Source: a virus
IMG/VR virus record: IMGVR_UViG_3300034062_006264
Location: 1 to 21,096 of that record
Direction: 5' to 3' (one strand)
DNA length: 21,096 bases
Shown: positions 8,085 to 20,735 of the stretch, one piece after another
Layout: the number at the start of each line of letters is the position of its first letter
Numbering within the stretch: the stretch's first letter is position 1
Notes under the pieces: model-generated
What the model saw: only the letters and a program-made list of their open reading frames with translations
What the model was told of the DNA's origin: nothing
Databases searched by the model: none
Translations under genes and position numbers: made by a program

Positions 8085-8194
8085 GATGAGACTTGAGTTT
8101 GAGACTTGAGTGAGAGGCAGTTGATCGGTGGTTAAGCGGCAAGATGCCGCTTCTACTTTTCTACTCAGGTTTCACGTTTCAGGTTTCAGCTTTC
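8085..8194. repeat. Two tandem-repeat arrays flanking a REP-like hairpin in the adaptor/85-aa gene gap
   Basis: The 129-bp gap between the adaptor gene and the 85-aa gene holds two different arrays: GAGACTTGAGTTTGAGACTT-type repeats at about 8086-8116, and GGTTTCACGTTTCAGGTTTC-type repeats at about 8167-8194. A GTAG-headed hairpin lies between them (annotated separately). No gene is seen in this gap. Confidence 0.7.
8134..8156 (-). repeat. REP-like element 1: GTAG plus hairpin
   Basis: On the minus strand GTAG is followed after a one-base step by a perfect 8-bp stem (AAGCGGCA) with a 3-base loop (TCT). The GTAG tetranucleotide 5' of a hairpin is the signature of REP elements recognised by RAYT (REP-associated tyrosine) transposases. 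The hairpin has no U-tract on the transcribed strand, so it is a weak candidate for an intrinsic terminator. Confidence 0.65.
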
Positions 8195-10636: not shown

Positions 10637-10672
10637 AGGAGAGTTGAGAGTTGAGGGATGAGAGTTGAGGGA
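10637..10672. repeat. GAGTTGAG-type tandem repeat downstream of portal; left member of a direct-repeat pair
   Basis: The 36-bp gap between portal stop and the 69-aa gene consists almost wholly of degenerate GAGTTGAG / GGGATGA units. Bases 10650-10669 (gttgagggatgagagttgag) are identical to 13269-13288 on the other side of the portal + 142-aa genes. Confidence 0.8.
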
Positions 10673-12826
10673 TTAGGCGGCGGCGGGGGCCGTGGCGCCG
10701 CGGGCGGCGAAGGCTCCGCCCATGGATTGCGGCTGGGACGCGAGCGCGGGGACGGCGCCGGTTCTCCCGATCTGGGCGTTTTGGATTTGGGTCATTTGGA
10801 AGTTCAGGGCTTGGGCTCGGGCGTCGACCATCCCTTTGTAGATTTCGTCGCCGGCGTAGCGTTGCTGGAGCTGGGGGTTGGCCTGGATCGCGCTTTGGAG
10901 GACTTGCAATCTCAGCTGGGGGTTGACGCCTTGTTCGGGTAATGGGGGCTCGATGCCGGCGCTGATCTTCGTTAGGGCGAGTTGTTCGTCTTCGGCTTCT
11001 TGGGCGGTGGCGACGTCTTGGCTGCGGACGATCATGGACGCCAGGCTGGGGTCTACGGCCCCGACGATGAAGTTGACTAACCCGGCGCGATCAATAACGC
11101 CGGCGACGTCGAGGGGGACGGCGACTTTGGCGATATACTCGAGCTTTTTGCCGAGGACTTCGGCGTCCAAATCGCGGACGTCGAATTCGGCGACTAGGTC
11201 GTAGCGGCCTTGGATCTGCTCGCGGCTGACTTGGAACGGGGCGGGCATGGCGCCGGCGACTCGGGCGATCTCGGTGTCGCTGACGTATTGCTGCATCAGG
11301 GCGAAGGCTTGGGCGATGACGGCTTTGCTACTGCGGAGCCAGCGGTCGACCATGGTTTGCTGGGTCAACATGGTGAGCGGCTGCGGGACGCTGGCGCTGA
11401 AGCGGCCGAAATATTCGTCGACGTCGCGGCGGGTGGCGGCTTCGATCTCGATGGTGCCGCTGTCGAATCGCGGGGGGTCCATCCATCCGAATTCGTTGGG
11501 GCGTCTTTCCGGGATCTGGGCGCCGGGGCCGAAGATGAGGTTTAGTTTGCCGCGGTTCGCGGGGACGCGCACGGGGGGGAGGACGGCGACGGCGGCGCGG
11601 TCGCTGCGGAAGTCGCGCTGGGTCTTGATCTCATACTGCTGGCTCTCGAGGAGCTCGGGGACGCCGCGGGATTCGAGGAGGTTGCGGGAGATGCGTTCGC
11701 GGGCGAATTCGACGAAGGGGTAGTCGCCGTGGCTATACGGGAGGAGTTCGCTGACGGCGACTTCGTCGGCGACGGATTCGTGCAGGACGGTGTAGTGGAC
11801 GCGGGTGGTTTGGTCCTTGTTGAATTGCTTCTGGTAGTAGTGCCAGAGCTCGATCATCTCGCGCTCGGTTTCGAGGTTGATGATTTCTTGCCGGTAGTAA
11901 TTCCTGATCGGGCGGCGGTAGGCGCCTTTGTGGCGGAGGGCTTGTTCGACGAAGTCTTCGCTATACCCGTCGGTGACGATGCGTTCGCGCAGTTCGGTCT
12001 CGGTGACCATTTCGCGCCAGGTGACGTAGCGTGCGCGTTGGAGGTCGGAGGTTTGAGGGGGAAAGTAGATGTCTTCCCAGGGCTCGAGGGCGACGAATTC
12101 GGGGCGGTTCTCGAAGAGGTAGGGATTTTCGTAGGTGCAGGCGCCGGTATTGCGGAGGTCGCGGACGCAGCTGAGCTTGCCGGCCGCCGGGCCGATGAGG
12201 TCGGCGAGCATTTGCTTGGCGTCTTCTTCCTGGAGCGGGTCCATGATGCTCTCGAGGAGGATCTGGATCATGGGGTCGCCGGTCTCGGCGAGCATGGCGG
12301 CGAGCTGGTCGAGGGTGATGGTCTTGGATTCGGTGCGGGTGGTGCGGCGCCAGAATACCCCCATCACGGCGAGGCCGTATTGTTCCTGCATTTGCGCGAG
12401 GAGTTCGACTTCGCGGCGTAAATCATCGGCGCAGTGTTGGAAGAGCATCCATTTCAACGCGGTCTCGGCGCTGACTTTGGCCGCGTAGTCGCTGGACTCG
12501 ATGGGTTGAAGTTGGATTTTGCTGCGGAAGAAGGCGTTCGTTAAGAGGGCGACGTTCTCGTTGCAGATTTGGTCGGCGAGGCGGACGCGGGCGTCGCTGG
12601 CGCCTTCCCAGGGGAAGGCTTGCTTGGCCAGGGCGGAGGAATGTTTGCGTCCGTCGGGGGATTGGCCGGACCAGATGGCGTGGCGGACTTCGTAGTTGCG
12701 TTGCTTTTTGTCGAGGTAGCCGCCGACGTCGGACTCGGCCTCCTGGATGTTGAGGAGGAAGCCGCGGATGTCTTCCGCGGAGGGCTTACCTAATGTCGCC
12801 TCATAATTGTAGCCGGAGGAGTCCAT
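10673..12826 (-). CDS. Portal protein
   Basis: This 717-aa protein is the longest in the window. An N-terminal region of helical and charged segments carries QAFPWEGASDARVRLADQIC at about residues 68-88, a motif typical of portal proteins of podovirus-like phages (PFxG-x-SD-x-R-x-x-x-D). A long mixed alpha/beta wing (about 170-400), a leg and stem region, and a C-terminal Gln/Ala-rich helical barrel and tail (QLRLQVLQSAIQANPQLQQR; QSMGGAFAARGATAPAAA) follow. The portal forms the dodecameric ring at the packaging vertex and docks the terminase. Its ATG overlaps the stop of the 142-aa gene (TGATG). There is no Shine-Dalgarno; CAGGTCT-type heptamers precede the start. Its position downstream of the capsid gene is unusual. 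The family name is inferred from size and motif. Confidence 0.85.
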   Translation of the reverse strand: MDSSGYNYEATLGKPSAEDIRGFLLNIQEAESDVGGYLDKKQRNYEVRHAIWSGQSPDGRKHSSALAKQAFPWEGASDARVRLADQICNENVALLTNAFFRSKIQLQPIESSDYAAKVSAETALKWMLFQHCADDLRREVELLAQMQEQYGLAVMGVFWRRTTRTESKTITLDQLAAMLAETGDPMIQILLESIMDPLQEEDAKQMLADLIGPAAGKLSCVRDLRNTGACTYENPYLFENRPEFVALEPWEDIYFPPQTSDLQRARYVTWREMVTETELRERIVTDGYSEDFVEQALRHKGAYRRPIRNYYRQEIINLETEREMIELWHYYQKQFNKDQTTRVHYTVLHESVADEVAVSELLPYSHGDYPFVEFARERISRNLLESRGVPELLESQQYEIKTQRDFRSDRAAVAVLPPVRVPANRGKLNLIFGPGAQIPERRPNEFGWMDPPRFDSGTIEIEAATRRDVDEYFGRFSASVPQPLTMLTQQTMVDRWLRSSKAVIAQAFALMQQYVSDTEIARVAGAMPAPFQVSREQIQGRYDLVAEFDVRDLDAEVLGKKLEYIAKVAVPLDVAGVIDRAGLVNFIVGAVDPSLASMIVRSQDVATAQEAEDEQLALTKISAGIEPPLPEQGVNPQLRLQVLQSAIQANPQLQQRYAGDEIYKGMVDARAQALNFQMTQIQNAQIGRTGAVPALASQPQSMGGAFAARGATAPAAA

Positions 12827-13255: not shown

Positions 13256-13290
13256 GGAGGAGTTGAGGGTTGAGGGATGAGAGTTGAGTG
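13256..13290. repeat. GAGTTGAG-type tandem repeat upstream of the 142-aa gene; right member of a direct-repeat pair
   Basis: Degenerate GAGTTGAGGGTTGAGGGATG units fill the space in front of the 142-aa start codon. Bases 13269-13288 are identical to 10650-10669, so the two arrays bracket the portal + 142-aa block in the same orientation. Confidence 0.8.
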
Positions 13291-13299
13291 AGACGGAAA

Positions 13300-13327
13300 C
13301 GGCCGACGCCGGGGACGGCGCCGCTAC
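13300..13327 (-). repeat. REP-like element 2: GTAG plus hairpin
   Basis: On the minus strand GTAG is followed at once by an 8-bp stem (CGGCGCCG / CGGCGTCG, one G-T pair) with a 4-base loop. Same orientation and layout as the other GTAG hairpins in the window. Confidence 0.6.
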
Positions 13328-16154: not shown

Positions 16155-16194
16155 GCAGTCACAAAGCACCGCAATGCACTGCAAAGCACTGCAA
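16155..16194 (-). repeat. Decamer array B (TTGCRGTGCT), four units
   Basis: On the minus strand the units are TTGCAGTGCT, TTGCAGTGCA, TTGCGGTGCT and a degenerate TTGTGACTGC. The array has the same structure as array A at 18026-18065, and the two enclose the phosphoesterase gene block. No open reading frame of convincing quality crosses it. Confidence 0.75.
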
Positions 16195-16196
16195 AT

Positions 16197-16215
16197 TGTG
16201 CCGCGAAGCGGCACA
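16197..16215 (-). other. Perfect short hairpin (8-bp stem, 3-base loop)
   Basis: On the minus strand TGTGCCGC pairs with GCGGCACA around a TTC loop. The stem is strong, but the following ATTTGC is not a U-tract, so terminator function is weakly supported. Confidence 0.5.
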
Positions 16216-16244
16216 GTTGGCAGTTGGCAGTTGGCAGTTGGCAG
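16214..16244. repeat. Heptamer array CAGTTGG, four full copies plus a partial
   Basis: Four perfect CAGTTGG units followed by CAG, with no sequence divergence between copies. This array is the most regular in the window, suggesting recent expansion. Confidence 0.85.
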
Positions 16245-16252
16245 CAAAGGGC

Positions 16253-16272
16253 GGTCGCCGCGGCGACCCTAC
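16253..16272 (-). repeat. REP-like element 3: GTAG plus perfect 16-bp palindrome; carries a stop codon
   Basis: On the minus strand GTAG is followed by GGTCGCCGCGGCGACC, a perfect palindrome. The TAG of GTAG is the stop codon of the 51-aa membrane protein (TCC CGG TAG). Confidence 0.7.
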
Positions 16273-16424
16273 CGGGAGCCGTAGATGGTGATGTACAAGA
16301 AGCCGATGTTGCCGAGGGTGTAGCCGGTGAAGGCGATGCCCATCCCGACCTGGCCTTCGCGGAAGAAGCCGATCGCCGTCAATACGTAGCAGATGGTGCA
16401 GATGAGGAGCGGGGTGAATGTCAT
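16269..16424 (-). CDS. Small membrane protein with two hydrophobic segments (51 aa)
   Basis: Translation from the ATG at 16424 gives MTFTPLLICTICYVLTAIGF, a hydrophilic turn (FREGQVGMG) and a second hydrophobic stretch (IAFTGYTLGNIGFLYITIYG) ending SR. The start overlaps the stop of the HExxH gene by 4 bases (ATGA), which supports real translation. Small phage membrane proteins of this design (a first helix starting with PLL, a turn with REGQ..M, then FxGYxLxNIGF) recur near head genes, but their role is not known to me. The stop codon is provided by a REP-like element. A holin-like or superinfection role is possible but unsupported. Confidence 0.75.
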   Translation of the reverse strand: MTFTPLLICTICYVLTAIGFFREGQVGMGIAFTGYTLGNIGFLYITIYGSR

Positions 16425-16696
16425 AGCCGGTAGCCTAACGTGGTCAGGATCGTGGTTAGCTCGCGGCTTCTTTGGTCGATGACTTCTTCGGCCATGTCGG
16501 GGAAGGCGGCGTGGAGGAATTCGTGGAGTTCGACTCTGAGGCGTTTGCGGCCGACTAGGCGGCGGTCGATCAGGATGCGGTGGCCGGAGCTGTTGTCGCC
16601 GGGCTCAGGGGTGAAGGCGTAGCCGTCGGCTTTGCCTTTCAAACGGACGTATTTCCAGGGCCATGACCGGCTGGCGATGCGGAAGCGGTGCTGCAT
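16421..16696 (-). CDS. HExxH-motif protein, putative small zinc metalloprotease (91 aa)
   Basis: The protein reads MQHRFRIASRSWPWKYVRLK, then KADGYAFTPEPGD, then RILIDRRLVGRKRLRVEL, and then HEFLHA at residues 58-63, followed by a helix (MAEEVIDQRSRELTTILTTL). The HExxH zinc-binding motif lies in a helix that follows a strand with ILID, which fits a minimal zincin-like peptidase or a SprT-like remnant; phages often carry such small HExxH proteins near the head genes. A third zinc ligand (for example Asp67, Glu70, Glu71 or Asp74 in the next helix) is plausible but not certain. No signal peptide. The start codon follows a REP-like element and has no Shine-Dalgarno. Confidence 0.75.
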   Translation of the reverse strand: MQHRFRIASRSWPWKYVRLKGKADGYAFTPEPGDNSSGHRILIDRRLVGRKRLRVELHEFLHAAFPDMAEEVIDQRSRELTTILTTLGYRL

Positions 16697-16706
16697 GGCG
16701 GCGGGC

Positions 16707-16731
16707 GGACGGCTGGGCCAGCCGTCCCTAC
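16707..16731 (-). repeat. REP-like element 4: GTAG plus 10-bp stem; carries a stop codon
   Basis: On the minus strand GTAG leads directly into a perfect 10-bp stem (GGACGGCTGG / CCAGCCGTCC) with a single central base. The TAG is the stop codon of the winged-helix gene (CCC CGG TAG). The element occupies the gap to the HExxH gene and leaves no Shine-Dalgarno there. Confidence 0.7.
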
Positions 16732-17003
16732 CGGGGGGTGAGGCGGTAGTGAGGGACTTTGCGGGCGACTTGCTCGAGCTGGATGGTGAAGTCTTGGCGT
16801 TCGGCTTGGCCGGTCTTGACCATTTTGCGGATGCGTTGGCTGATGGTGACGGGGGCTTTGCCTACTTCCGCGGCCAGATCGGCGACGGTGAACCAGCCGG
16901 GGGGGACGACGTCGAGATCGACCTTGGGCTGGGTGAGTTGCTGGCAAAAGTTGGTCAGCGAGGATTCGATCTGCTCGGCGGTGATCTTCGACTTTTTGCT
17001 CAT
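16728..17003 (-). CDS. Winged-helix/HTH DNA-binding-like protein (91 aa)
   Basis: From the ATG at 17003 the product starts MSKKSKITAEQIESSLTNFC. The central part (about residues 38-72) reads WFTVADLAAEVGKAPVTISQ then RIRKMVKTGQAERQ, which is a good helix-turn-helix: a first helix (VADLAAEVG), turn, and recognition helix (TISQRIRKMVKTG), followed by beta wing (RKVPHYRLTPR). It could bind DNA as a regulator, or serve as a small packaging protein. The ATG overlaps the phosphoesterase stop (ATGA). A longer in-frame frame upstream is an overlap shadow of the phosphoesterase and is not used. The last residue pair and stop lie in a REP-like element. Confidence 0.75.
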   Translation of the reverse strand: MSKKSKITAEQIESSLTNFCQQLTQPKVDLDVVPPGWFTVADLAAEVGKAPVTISQRIRKMVKTGQAERQDFTIQLEQVARKVPHYRLTPR

Positions 17004-17821
17004 AGATGGGTCACTTTGGGCGCCGGGGGGTTGTAGAAGATGTGATGCGGGCTTGGGAGGGCGCCTTGGGGTTTGCCGCGCCAGTCGAGGATCAAGAGGC
17101 TGGGACGCGGGATGCTGTCGGGGACGACTTTGTGGCCGTGGCGGGTCAAGAATTGCCAGCCGCCGGTGACGCCGATCATGCCGCTGCCGTCGCTGTAGAC
17201 GCCGCCGCAATGGCGGTGTCCGCGGAGATAGACCTGAGCAACCGGGTGGCCGGCGCGGACGGAGTTGAGGCGGGCGTTGCCGAGGGTGATCGAAAGGGCG
17301 CTGGCTTCGAGGTAGGCGCGAGAGGTGGCGCCGATGTGGTGGGTGGCGTCGATGGCGCAGCCGTGGATGTTGATGAGCCACTTCTCGCGGGCGACTTCGT
17401 CGCGGGCGCCGATGAGCCTGGCGAGGTAGCTCTCGACATCGTGAGTATGACATTCGGTGCCTTTGGTGATGAAGGTGGCGGCGGCTTTGGAGGTGAGCGG
17501 CTTTAAGGCTTCGGCGGCCATGGCGCAGTGGTTTTCGATTAAGCTGGCAACGACTTCGGGGCTGCGGTGGTGGATGCCTTCGGTGGCGTCGCCGTTGACC
17601 AGGACGGCGTAGGGGTCGGGGCCGGCGATGGTGGCGACTTGGCTGAGGGCGTTTTGCCAACACTCCCACAACCAACGCTGATGGTGGTTCTTGCCGAAAT
17701 TGATGGTGTTGCCAGCGAGGTTCTCGCTGTCGGGCGGCATGAGGCCGACGGTGCTGCCGCAGTGCAGATCGGAGCAGACGACGAGGATCGACGGCTTTTT
17801 GTCGGCTTTCTTCTTGGGCAT
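17000..17821 (-). CDS. Calcineurin-like metallophosphoesterase
   Basis: The 273-aa protein shows the metallophosphoesterase motifs in order: SDLHCG (Asp18, His20), VNGDATEG (Asp78), KGTECHT (residues 120-126, in place of GNH), a His pair at 161-162, and RGHRHCGG (201-204, GHxH). These ligate a di-metal centre that hydrolyses phosphate esters or phosphodiesters. Substitution of GTECHT for GNHD/E alters one canonical ligand segment, so activity and metal set may differ from the family norm. Its stop overlaps the winged-helix start. Phages carry such enzymes for nucleic-acid or nucleotide processing, but the substrate is not visible. No good Shine-Dalgarno precedes the ATG. Confidence 0.85.
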   Translation of the reverse strand: MPKKKADKKPSILVVCSDLHCGSTVGLMPPDSENLAGNTINFGKNHHQRWLWECWQNALSQVATIAGPDPYAVLVNGDATEGIHHRSPEVVASLIENHCAMAAEALKPLTSKAAATFITKGTECHTHDVESYLARLIGARDEVAREKWLINIHGCAIDATHHIGATSRAYLEASALSITLGNARLNSVRAGHPVAQVYLRGHRHCGGVYSDGSGMIGVTGGWQFLTRHGHKVVPDSIPRPSLLILDWRGKPQGALPSPHHIFYNPPAPKVTHL

Positions 17822-18025: not shown

Positions 18026-18065
18026 GCGACAGCAAAGCACTGCAATCCACCGCAAAGCACCGCAA
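18026..18065 (-). repeat. Decamer array A (TTGCRGTGCT), four units
   Basis: On the minus strand the units are TTGCGGTGCT, TTGCGGTGGA, TTGCAGTGCT and a degenerate TTGCTGTCGC. It begins directly after the TAA of the 94-aa gene and is nearly the same as array B at 16155-16194. Confidence 0.75.
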
Positions 18066-18350
18066 TTAGAGCCCTTGCGGTGAGGCAATAGCGTCGGCGC
18101 GGCGGGCGGCGAGGTCTTCCTTGAGGGAAAGGATGGCGTCCATGCCGCCGGCAGTGTGGGCGAGAAGGCTCGGCTGCTGCGCGGTTTGCGGGGCGCGGAC
18201 GATTGCCTGGGCATCACCGATATGCTCGTCGATCACGGACATAATGGCCGCCCAAAGAGGCGTGCTCTCCGGGACGGCCAAGGCGCCCCGTTTTTCTTTA
18301 TCGGTCAACGTAGGGACGTCGATGCGGATTTTGCGGGTGAACCAGCTCAT
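18066..18350 (-). CDS. 94-aa protein of unknown function
   Basis: I do not recognise this protein by name. It starts MSWFTRKIRIDVPTLTDKEK, has a central helix with LWAAIMSVIDEHIGDAQAIV, and a helical C-terminal half (AGGMDAILSLKEDLAARRAD). It is soluble and without signal sequence. The helical, charged C-terminus and location between the terminase block and the accessory block would suit a small scaffold-like or packaging-associated protein. The ATG overlaps the stop of the 44-aa gene by 4 bases, and the TAA is followed immediately by the decamer array. Confidence 0.7.
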   Translation of the reverse strand: MSWFTRKIRIDVPTLTDKEKRGALAVPESTPLWAAIMSVIDEHIGDAQAIVRAPQTAQQPSLLAHTAGGMDAILSLKEDLAARRADAIASPQGL

Positions 18351-18738: not shown

Positions 18739-18753
18739 AGATTTAGAAGAAGT

Positions 18754-18780
18754 GGCGAGTGACTTGTGACGAGTGACGAG
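18754..18780. repeat. GTGACGA-type tandem repeat; left member of a direct-repeat pair
   Basis: Degenerate GTGACTT / GTGACGA heptamers lie between the 63-aa and 80-aa genes. Bases 18759-18778 (gtgacttgtgacgagtgacg) are identical to 20711-20730. Confidence 0.8.
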
Positions 18781-18789
18781 ATCCAGAGG

Positions 18790-20704: not shown

Positions 20705-20735
20705 TGACGTGTGACTTGTGACGAGTGACGTGTTC
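20705..20735. repeat. GTGACGA-type tandem repeat; right member of a direct-repeat pair
   Basis: Bases 20711-20730 (gtgacttgtgacgagtgacg) repeat 18759-18778 exactly, in the same orientation. The two copies enclose the terminase and HTH genes (about 1.95 kb). The array occupies the space where a Shine-Dalgarno for the terminase would lie. Confidence 0.8.

Follow-up and report, generated by a model that had tools for sequence, protein, structure and literature searches.

GTAG-headed REP palindromes at gene ends in an SU10-capsid phage lineage

Two hairpins in a viral contig assembled from a metagenome begin directly behind the stop codons of small genes and carry GTAG at their heads, raising the question of whether REP elements of the kind mobilised by RAYT transposases in bacteria have entered phage gene ends, and whether they now determine where the encoded proteins stop. 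The window, meaning the whole 21,096-nt stretch analysed here (IMG/VR record IMGVR_UViG_3300034062_006264, positions 1 to 21,096), encodes a major capsid protein of SU10 type (PF17236; 13912-14925, minus strand), so the contig is a phage fragment; its GC content is 60%, and no phage isolates close to it were found. The genes concerned all lie on the minus strand: a conserved 273-aa phage protein (17000-17821), a 91-aa gene (p1, 16728-17003), a downstream 91-aa gene (16421-16696) and a gene for a putative 51-aa membrane protein (16269-16424). The first 91-aa gene and the 51-aa gene are real, homologues of both being present in many IMG/VR contigs. The product of p1 gave no Pfam or PHROG match, and its description as a winged-helix protein comes from the original prediction.

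Examination of the two hairpins confirmed the predicted layout of GTAG plus palindrome on the minus strand, with the TAG serving as the stop codon of the gene before it and CGG in front at both places. REP copy A (16705-16736, minus strand) consists of the head CCCCGGTAG, the palindrome GGACGGCTGGCCCAGCCGTCC and a terminal GC, with GTAG at 16731-16728 followed by a hairpin at 16727-16707 that has a perfect 10-bp stem and a 1-nt DNA loop. The 91-aa gene ends CTC ACC CCC CGG TAG, its final CCC CGG TAG (Pro-Arg-stop, TAG at 16730-16728) being contributed by the repeat, and the hairpin GGACGGCTGGCCCAGCCGTCC starts at the very next base. REP copy B (16253-16272, minus strand) comprises GTAG at 16272-16269 and GGTCGCCGCGGCGACC, a perfect 8+8 palindrome at 16268-16253; the 51-aa gene ends TAC GGC TCC CGG TAG, with its stop at 16271-16269 and GGTCGCCGCGGCGACC immediately after. 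Two further minus-strand copies belonging to other families had been overlooked: copy C (8134-8156), an intergenic GTAG plus AAGCGGCATCTTGCCGCTT whose palindrome is also present in L011, L015 and L208, and copy D (13304-13327), a degenerate GTAG plus CGGCGCCGTCCCCGGCGTCG with one stem mismatch, the intact form of which occurs in L005, L031, L193, L194 and Chthoniobacterales genomes. All four copies are headed by GTAG and measure 20-25 nt. With an arm of at least 8 and at most one mismatch, the window contains five GTAG hairpins, whereas 30 block-shuffled windows average 0.43 and have at most 3; four of the five look genuine and the fifth (17195-17219, plus strand) is probably due to chance. 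RNA folding of 49-nt pieces gave z values of -1.2 and -0.7, ordinary for such GC-rich DNA, so the significance of the hairpins comes from their recurrence, head motif and stem covariation. A and B are genuine REPs of the GTAG superfamily, a sort of repeat that abounds in aquatic Verrucomicrobia.

The recurrence was assessed in 48 IMG/VR loci fetched through similarity to the 273-aa protein, the repeats playing no part in their selection. A REP population is common to about 30 related phage contigs, and pattern searches recovered further copies in other viral contigs. GTAG is easily the commonest tetramer heading hairpins of at least 8 bp in the phage loci (26 of 209 views, the runner-up reaching 7). 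The palindromes fall into at least seven types, and one phage often carries several of them; densities per 10 kb are 1.8-3.9 in five near-relative contigs, 2.4 in the window and 0.6 in the near relative G028; the distant relatives L040-L048 contain no GTAG REPs in 79 kb. The consensus of the main family is CCCCG-GTAG-GGNCNGCTGGCCCAGCNGNCC-GC, its head and tail derived from 46 phage copies. Both variable stem pairs are fully paired in 38 of the 40 copies counted, across four stem types, demonstrating covariation. The base preceding GTAG is G in all 46 phage copies and the next base outward is C in 42, indicating that the CGG ahead of TAG is mostly the repeat itself, as the head CCCCGGTAG. The repeat GGCGGG[G/A]CCTCCGG[A/G]CCCGCC was observed in L001, L013, L014, L026, L031 and L247, with a G-A mismatch in the stem of both variants; in this it resembles the REPs with a bulge that belong to some RAYT groups. 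G416 has two copies of it and G135 one.

The left and right flanks of the REP sites were followed through the phage relatives, and sites with matched flanks in close relatives were found to be empty, filled or occupied by another palindrome. The same site is occupied, between phage genes, in at least 10 independent contigs, which derive from different metagenomes. Where the 91-aa gene ends, L031 (RLIKS-TAG-TCCGCC-ATG) and L021 (RLLKK-TAA) lack the repeat, as do L020, L022-L025 and L028-L030, which stop with TGA, while some other relatives have GGACGGCT... and others GGCGGGGCCTCCGGACCCGCC; in L019 the homologue has its own TGA and a REP lies about 10 nt downstream. Alleles of this gene that are 97-99% identical show three different ends (RLKK-TGA in L015, RLKQG-TAG-REP in L001, RLTPR-TAG-REP in the window). 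The 51-aa gene is followed by GGTCGCCGCGGCGACC in the window, L003, L004 and L187, by GGACGGCTGGCCCAGCCGTCC in L005, L014 and L018, and by the palindrome GGCGGGGCCTCCGGACCCGCC in L026. At another phage site with the same adjoining bases, GGTCCGCT... is present in L005 and GGACGGCT... in L014, L171 and L187, and a further site holds GGACCGCT... but GGACGGCT... in L193. These palindrome differences between relatives are exchanges at fixed places. Two p1 alleles only 66-68% identical (16728-17003 in the window; L003, L004, L008, L009) were also seen to share the TPR-TAG-REP end, from which it follows that gene bodies recombine ahead of a conserved repeat. Near the site designated S3, L031 and L026 contain a GTAGGGCGGGACCTCCGGGCCCGCC repeat that apparently lies in frame within coding sequence (..QVGRDLRARR..).

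The same comparison bears on the protein ends. Repeat-free homologues of the 91-aa protein finish with RLLKK-TGA, RLIKS-TAG or RLLKK-TAA, against RLTPR-TAG with the REP, and the small membrane protein reads WQVSR-TGA without the repeat (100% identity) against WQVSR-TAG with it. L245 and L247 share a 47-aa version without a single residue difference, whose gene ends GTC TCC CGC TGA in L245 and GTA AGC AGG TAG plus REP in L247, and the C-terminal SR of the small membrane protein family is kept with or without a REP. Since the stop of the repeat-free homologues falls within one codon of the same position, the repeats replace the final codons together with the stop but do not determine length, and the proposal that REPs define the C-termini of these proteins was rejected. 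What does change is the spacing: the gap from the stop of the 91-aa gene to the next start codon is 31 nt with REP A, against 6-7 nt in the repeat-free L031 and L021, and REP A also places a strong hairpin in that gap.

Stop supply by GTAG REPs was already published in 2013 (PMC3733652), and its frequency was evaluated here in loci of the PVC group. Of 263 PVC-locus REPs, 24 have a TAG that ends a gene; among the 162 with a same-strand upstream gene, the stop precedes the element in 136 and coincides with the TAG in 24, a mainly extragenic or gene-end location that the phages share. This first tally, sharply peaked at distance 0 (24/162), suggested a strong rule, which was abandoned after a frame-controlled test that used codon scoring and the elements that genes run into. 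The in-frame count exceeded those of the other two frames only modestly in the PVC loci (19 versus 8 and 9), with 10 versus 9 versus 0 in phages and 8 versus 5 versus 5 in a smaller Chthoniobacterales sample. Given this modest excess, stop supply is regarded as a recurrent by-product, and selection for it is not claimed. Raw open-frame lengths were unbiased, a measure that carries no information when the DNA is GC-rich.

The source of the repeats was sought among bacteria. The pattern CGGTAGGGACGGCT..AGCCGTCC matched chiefly genomes of Verrucomicrobia, Lentisphaerae and Kiritimatiellae, and GGTAGGGACGGCT..AGCCGTCC was present in all 24 genomes selected for carrying the pattern, at up to 41 copies, with none for a reversed control; Y1 transposase matches occurred in 23 of these 24 pattern-selected genomes. 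The exact phage forms are rarer in bacteria than the general pattern. Across 388 Verrucomicrobiota genomes, the GGCCC-loop family gave one match, the GGCGGGGCCTCC type two and GTAGCGGCGGACTATGTCCG none. TGTAGCGGCG[C/G]CGTCCCCG[C/G]CGCCG, the CGGCGSCG type, was found in 6 of 147 genomes from the order of G006 (Chthoniobacterales VE1), against none of 142 from the order of G008 (an Akkermansiaceae MAG). Five of those six Chthoniobacterales genomes contain the GGCCC-loop family, with 14 copies in MAG G430, whose stem types GGACGGCT, GGTCCGCT and GGACCGCT are those of the phages. G430 yielded at least eight palindromes that match phage ones exactly, among them GGACGGCT, GGTCCGCT and GGACCGCT (..GGCCC..) and CGGCGCCGTCCCCGGCGCCG, with subsets in G431 and G581; in the samples from G430 and G581, GTAG also predominates as the hairpin head. 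No exact copy of the B palindrome GGTCGCCGCGGCGACC turned up in 16 PVC genomes, and the Chthoniobacterales stretches that were sampled contained none of the B, C and GGCGGGGCCTCC palindromes, which leaves some phage REPs untraced. Aquatic Chthoniobacterales (Verrucomicrobiota) are most likely the hosts of these phages, a link for which the shared repeats are the evidence.

RAYT genes were detected on the bacterial side. In the Chthoniobacterales G581 (L281) and G555 (L282), a RAYT (NF047646, 102-105 bits) is set among GTAG REPs of the CGGCG class. The G581 gene (105 bits) ends CTT TTG TAG CGGCGGTCTATGACCGCCG, its own stop being the REP's TAG, and the 432-aa gene next to it likewise takes its stop from the TAG of another REP (the GTAGs lie at 1354-1357 and 1906-1909 of L281). 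In L282, an inverted GTAG pair precedes the RAYT, which ends in a degenerate GTAG REP (1345-1348). The exact REP A palindrome adjoins a RAYT in the Kiritimatiellae MAG L257, among four other GTAG REPs; no RAYT adjoining the B or C palindromes was found. The best-matching MAGs G430 and G431, which may be incomplete, gave no RAYT match. In the phages, 20 records, several of them fragments, contained no Y1_Tnp match, and a transposase acting on them would thus have to be supplied by the host.

Together, these results favour, with a probability of about three in four, a reading in which GTAG REPs of the host's kind form a small, multi-family population in an SU10-capsid phage lineage, having been copied in by a host RAYT. 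The prediction that host-type REPs entered phage gene ends is accordingly supported by their recurrence, the site polymorphism and the identical copies in Chthoniobacterales, some with a RAYT among GTAG REPs. During infection, a host RAYT, a single-strand Y1 transposase recognising GTAG plus hairpin, would copy a REP of about 30 nt into phage DNA, and copies landing at gene junctions would be tolerated. Where the head falls in frame at the last codon of a gene, TAG would become the stop with little or no alteration of the protein. Palindromes at an occupied site may later be exchanged, through re-insertion or through recombination with other REPs. By analogy with E. coli REPs, a strong hairpin right after the stop would probably slow termination and loosen coupling to the next gene as a side effect. 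Phages did not invent these REPs; the phage appears to carry them and is possibly their vector.

A RAYT acting in trans is the most likely route into the phages, and recombination is its main rival. Homologous recombination with REP-bearing host DNA or with DNA of a co-infecting phage, followed by spread through phage recombination, would need no RAYT acting on phage DNA, and although we rate it as less likely, it accounts for several observations: the phages are mosaic, 66-68% identical p1 alleles share one TPR-TAG-REP end while 97-99% identical alleles carry three, the short common heads permit micro-homology exchange, and the phage records are without RAYT. None of the sites compared offered a datable clean insertion with the same bases to its left and right, and no transposition event into a phage was seen. 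Recombination alone would not easily seed the many unrelated phage sites at which seven or more palindrome types stand with no host flanks beside them.

A regulatory origin, in which the hairpins are the phages' own terminators or mRNA-stability hairpins after stop codons and merely resemble REPs, would suit the gene-end position, the prevailing gene orientation and the covarying stems. It is nevertheless improbable, because identical sequences with head and loop occur throughout bacterial genomes, copies stand at differing sites among relatives and apparently inside genes in L031 and L026, and no Rfam family matched. An intrinsic terminator, taken as a GC-rich hairpin plus a T run, was rejected for both A and B: neither appeared in a terminator-like scan, and in place of a T run they are followed by GCCCGCC and GCCCTTT. 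Coincidence in DNA of 60% GC, or chimeric host-phage assembly, conceivable where all contigs are metagenomic, would have to produce five hairpins where 0.43 are expected and fill one site between phage genes in at least 10 independent contigs, and is very improbable.

As in the GTAG superfamily described by Di Nocera, De Gregorio and Rocco in 2013 (PMC3733652), which includes the PVC group and is very rich in Opitutus terrae, a short perfect palindrome has GTAG at one of its ends and several families coexist per genome; that work concerns bacterial chromosomes and nowhere mentions phages, whereas the population described here resides in phage genomes. Group 2 and 3 TnpA-REP proteins recognise GTAG plus hairpin in vitro (PMC8266576), and the REP-bordered RAYTs of L281, L282 and L257 correspond to the REPtron arrangement (Nunvar 2010, PMC2817692; PMC8266576). 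Unlike REPtrons, the phage contigs hold REPs without a RAYT, so that mobilisation would be in trans, and in Chthoniobacterales no particular RAYT could be assigned to the GGCCC-loop family. According to the work cited in PMC12306157, REPs of E. coli stall ribosomes and lower translation when they lie within 15 nt of a stop codon; the hairpins here likewise lie directly 3' of the stop, but the stop codon belongs to the element itself (distance 0), and any effect on translation would be by analogy with the cases cited there. The kind of element and its supply of stops are known, while a phage-resident, polymorphic REP population with palindromes matching those of a single candidate host clade looks unreported in a limited literature search.

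REPs are among the commonest bacterial repeats, and their persistence is modelled on the assumption that inheritance is almost purely vertical. REPINs, which like these repeats are non-autonomous and RAYT-dependent, are treated as vertically inherited populations for which replicative horizontal transfer is regarded as unlikely (PMC8049555; PMC3116915), and a phage-borne population, in contrast to this model, bears directly on horizontal transfer. A phage lineage carrying the palindromes of its likely hosts makes horizontal REP movement testable and offers a plausible route for it. Phages may even serve as REP vectors, receiving insertions from host RAYTs in trans, holding at their gene junctions a population denser than that of the sampled hosts and delivering it to new hosts; this extension is tentative, falling somewhat short of even odds, and if true it would establish a horizontal route contrary to current models. 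Because the same Chthoniobacterales genomes are indicated by several palindromes independently of one another, shared REPs also constitute a host-prediction signal for uncultured phages, and fixed sites whose palindrome changes between close relatives provide a natural record of REP turnover.

Other repeats were noted in the intergenic zones of the window. Degenerate tandem arrays with a unit of about 7 nt (GTTGAGG/GATGAGA, GCAGTTG, GACGAGTGACTTGT) occupy 10641-10695, 13260-13314, 16222-16246, 18753-18783 and 20705-20735, with the versions TCAAATCTCCAAT, TCGTCACTCGTCAC and GACCAAGAGACTAAG at the same places in relatives. A 41-nt repeat (CAAAGCACTGCAATCCACCGCAAAGCACCGCAATTAGAGCC-like, 83% identical) is present in two intergenic regions, at 16162-16202 and 18033-18073.
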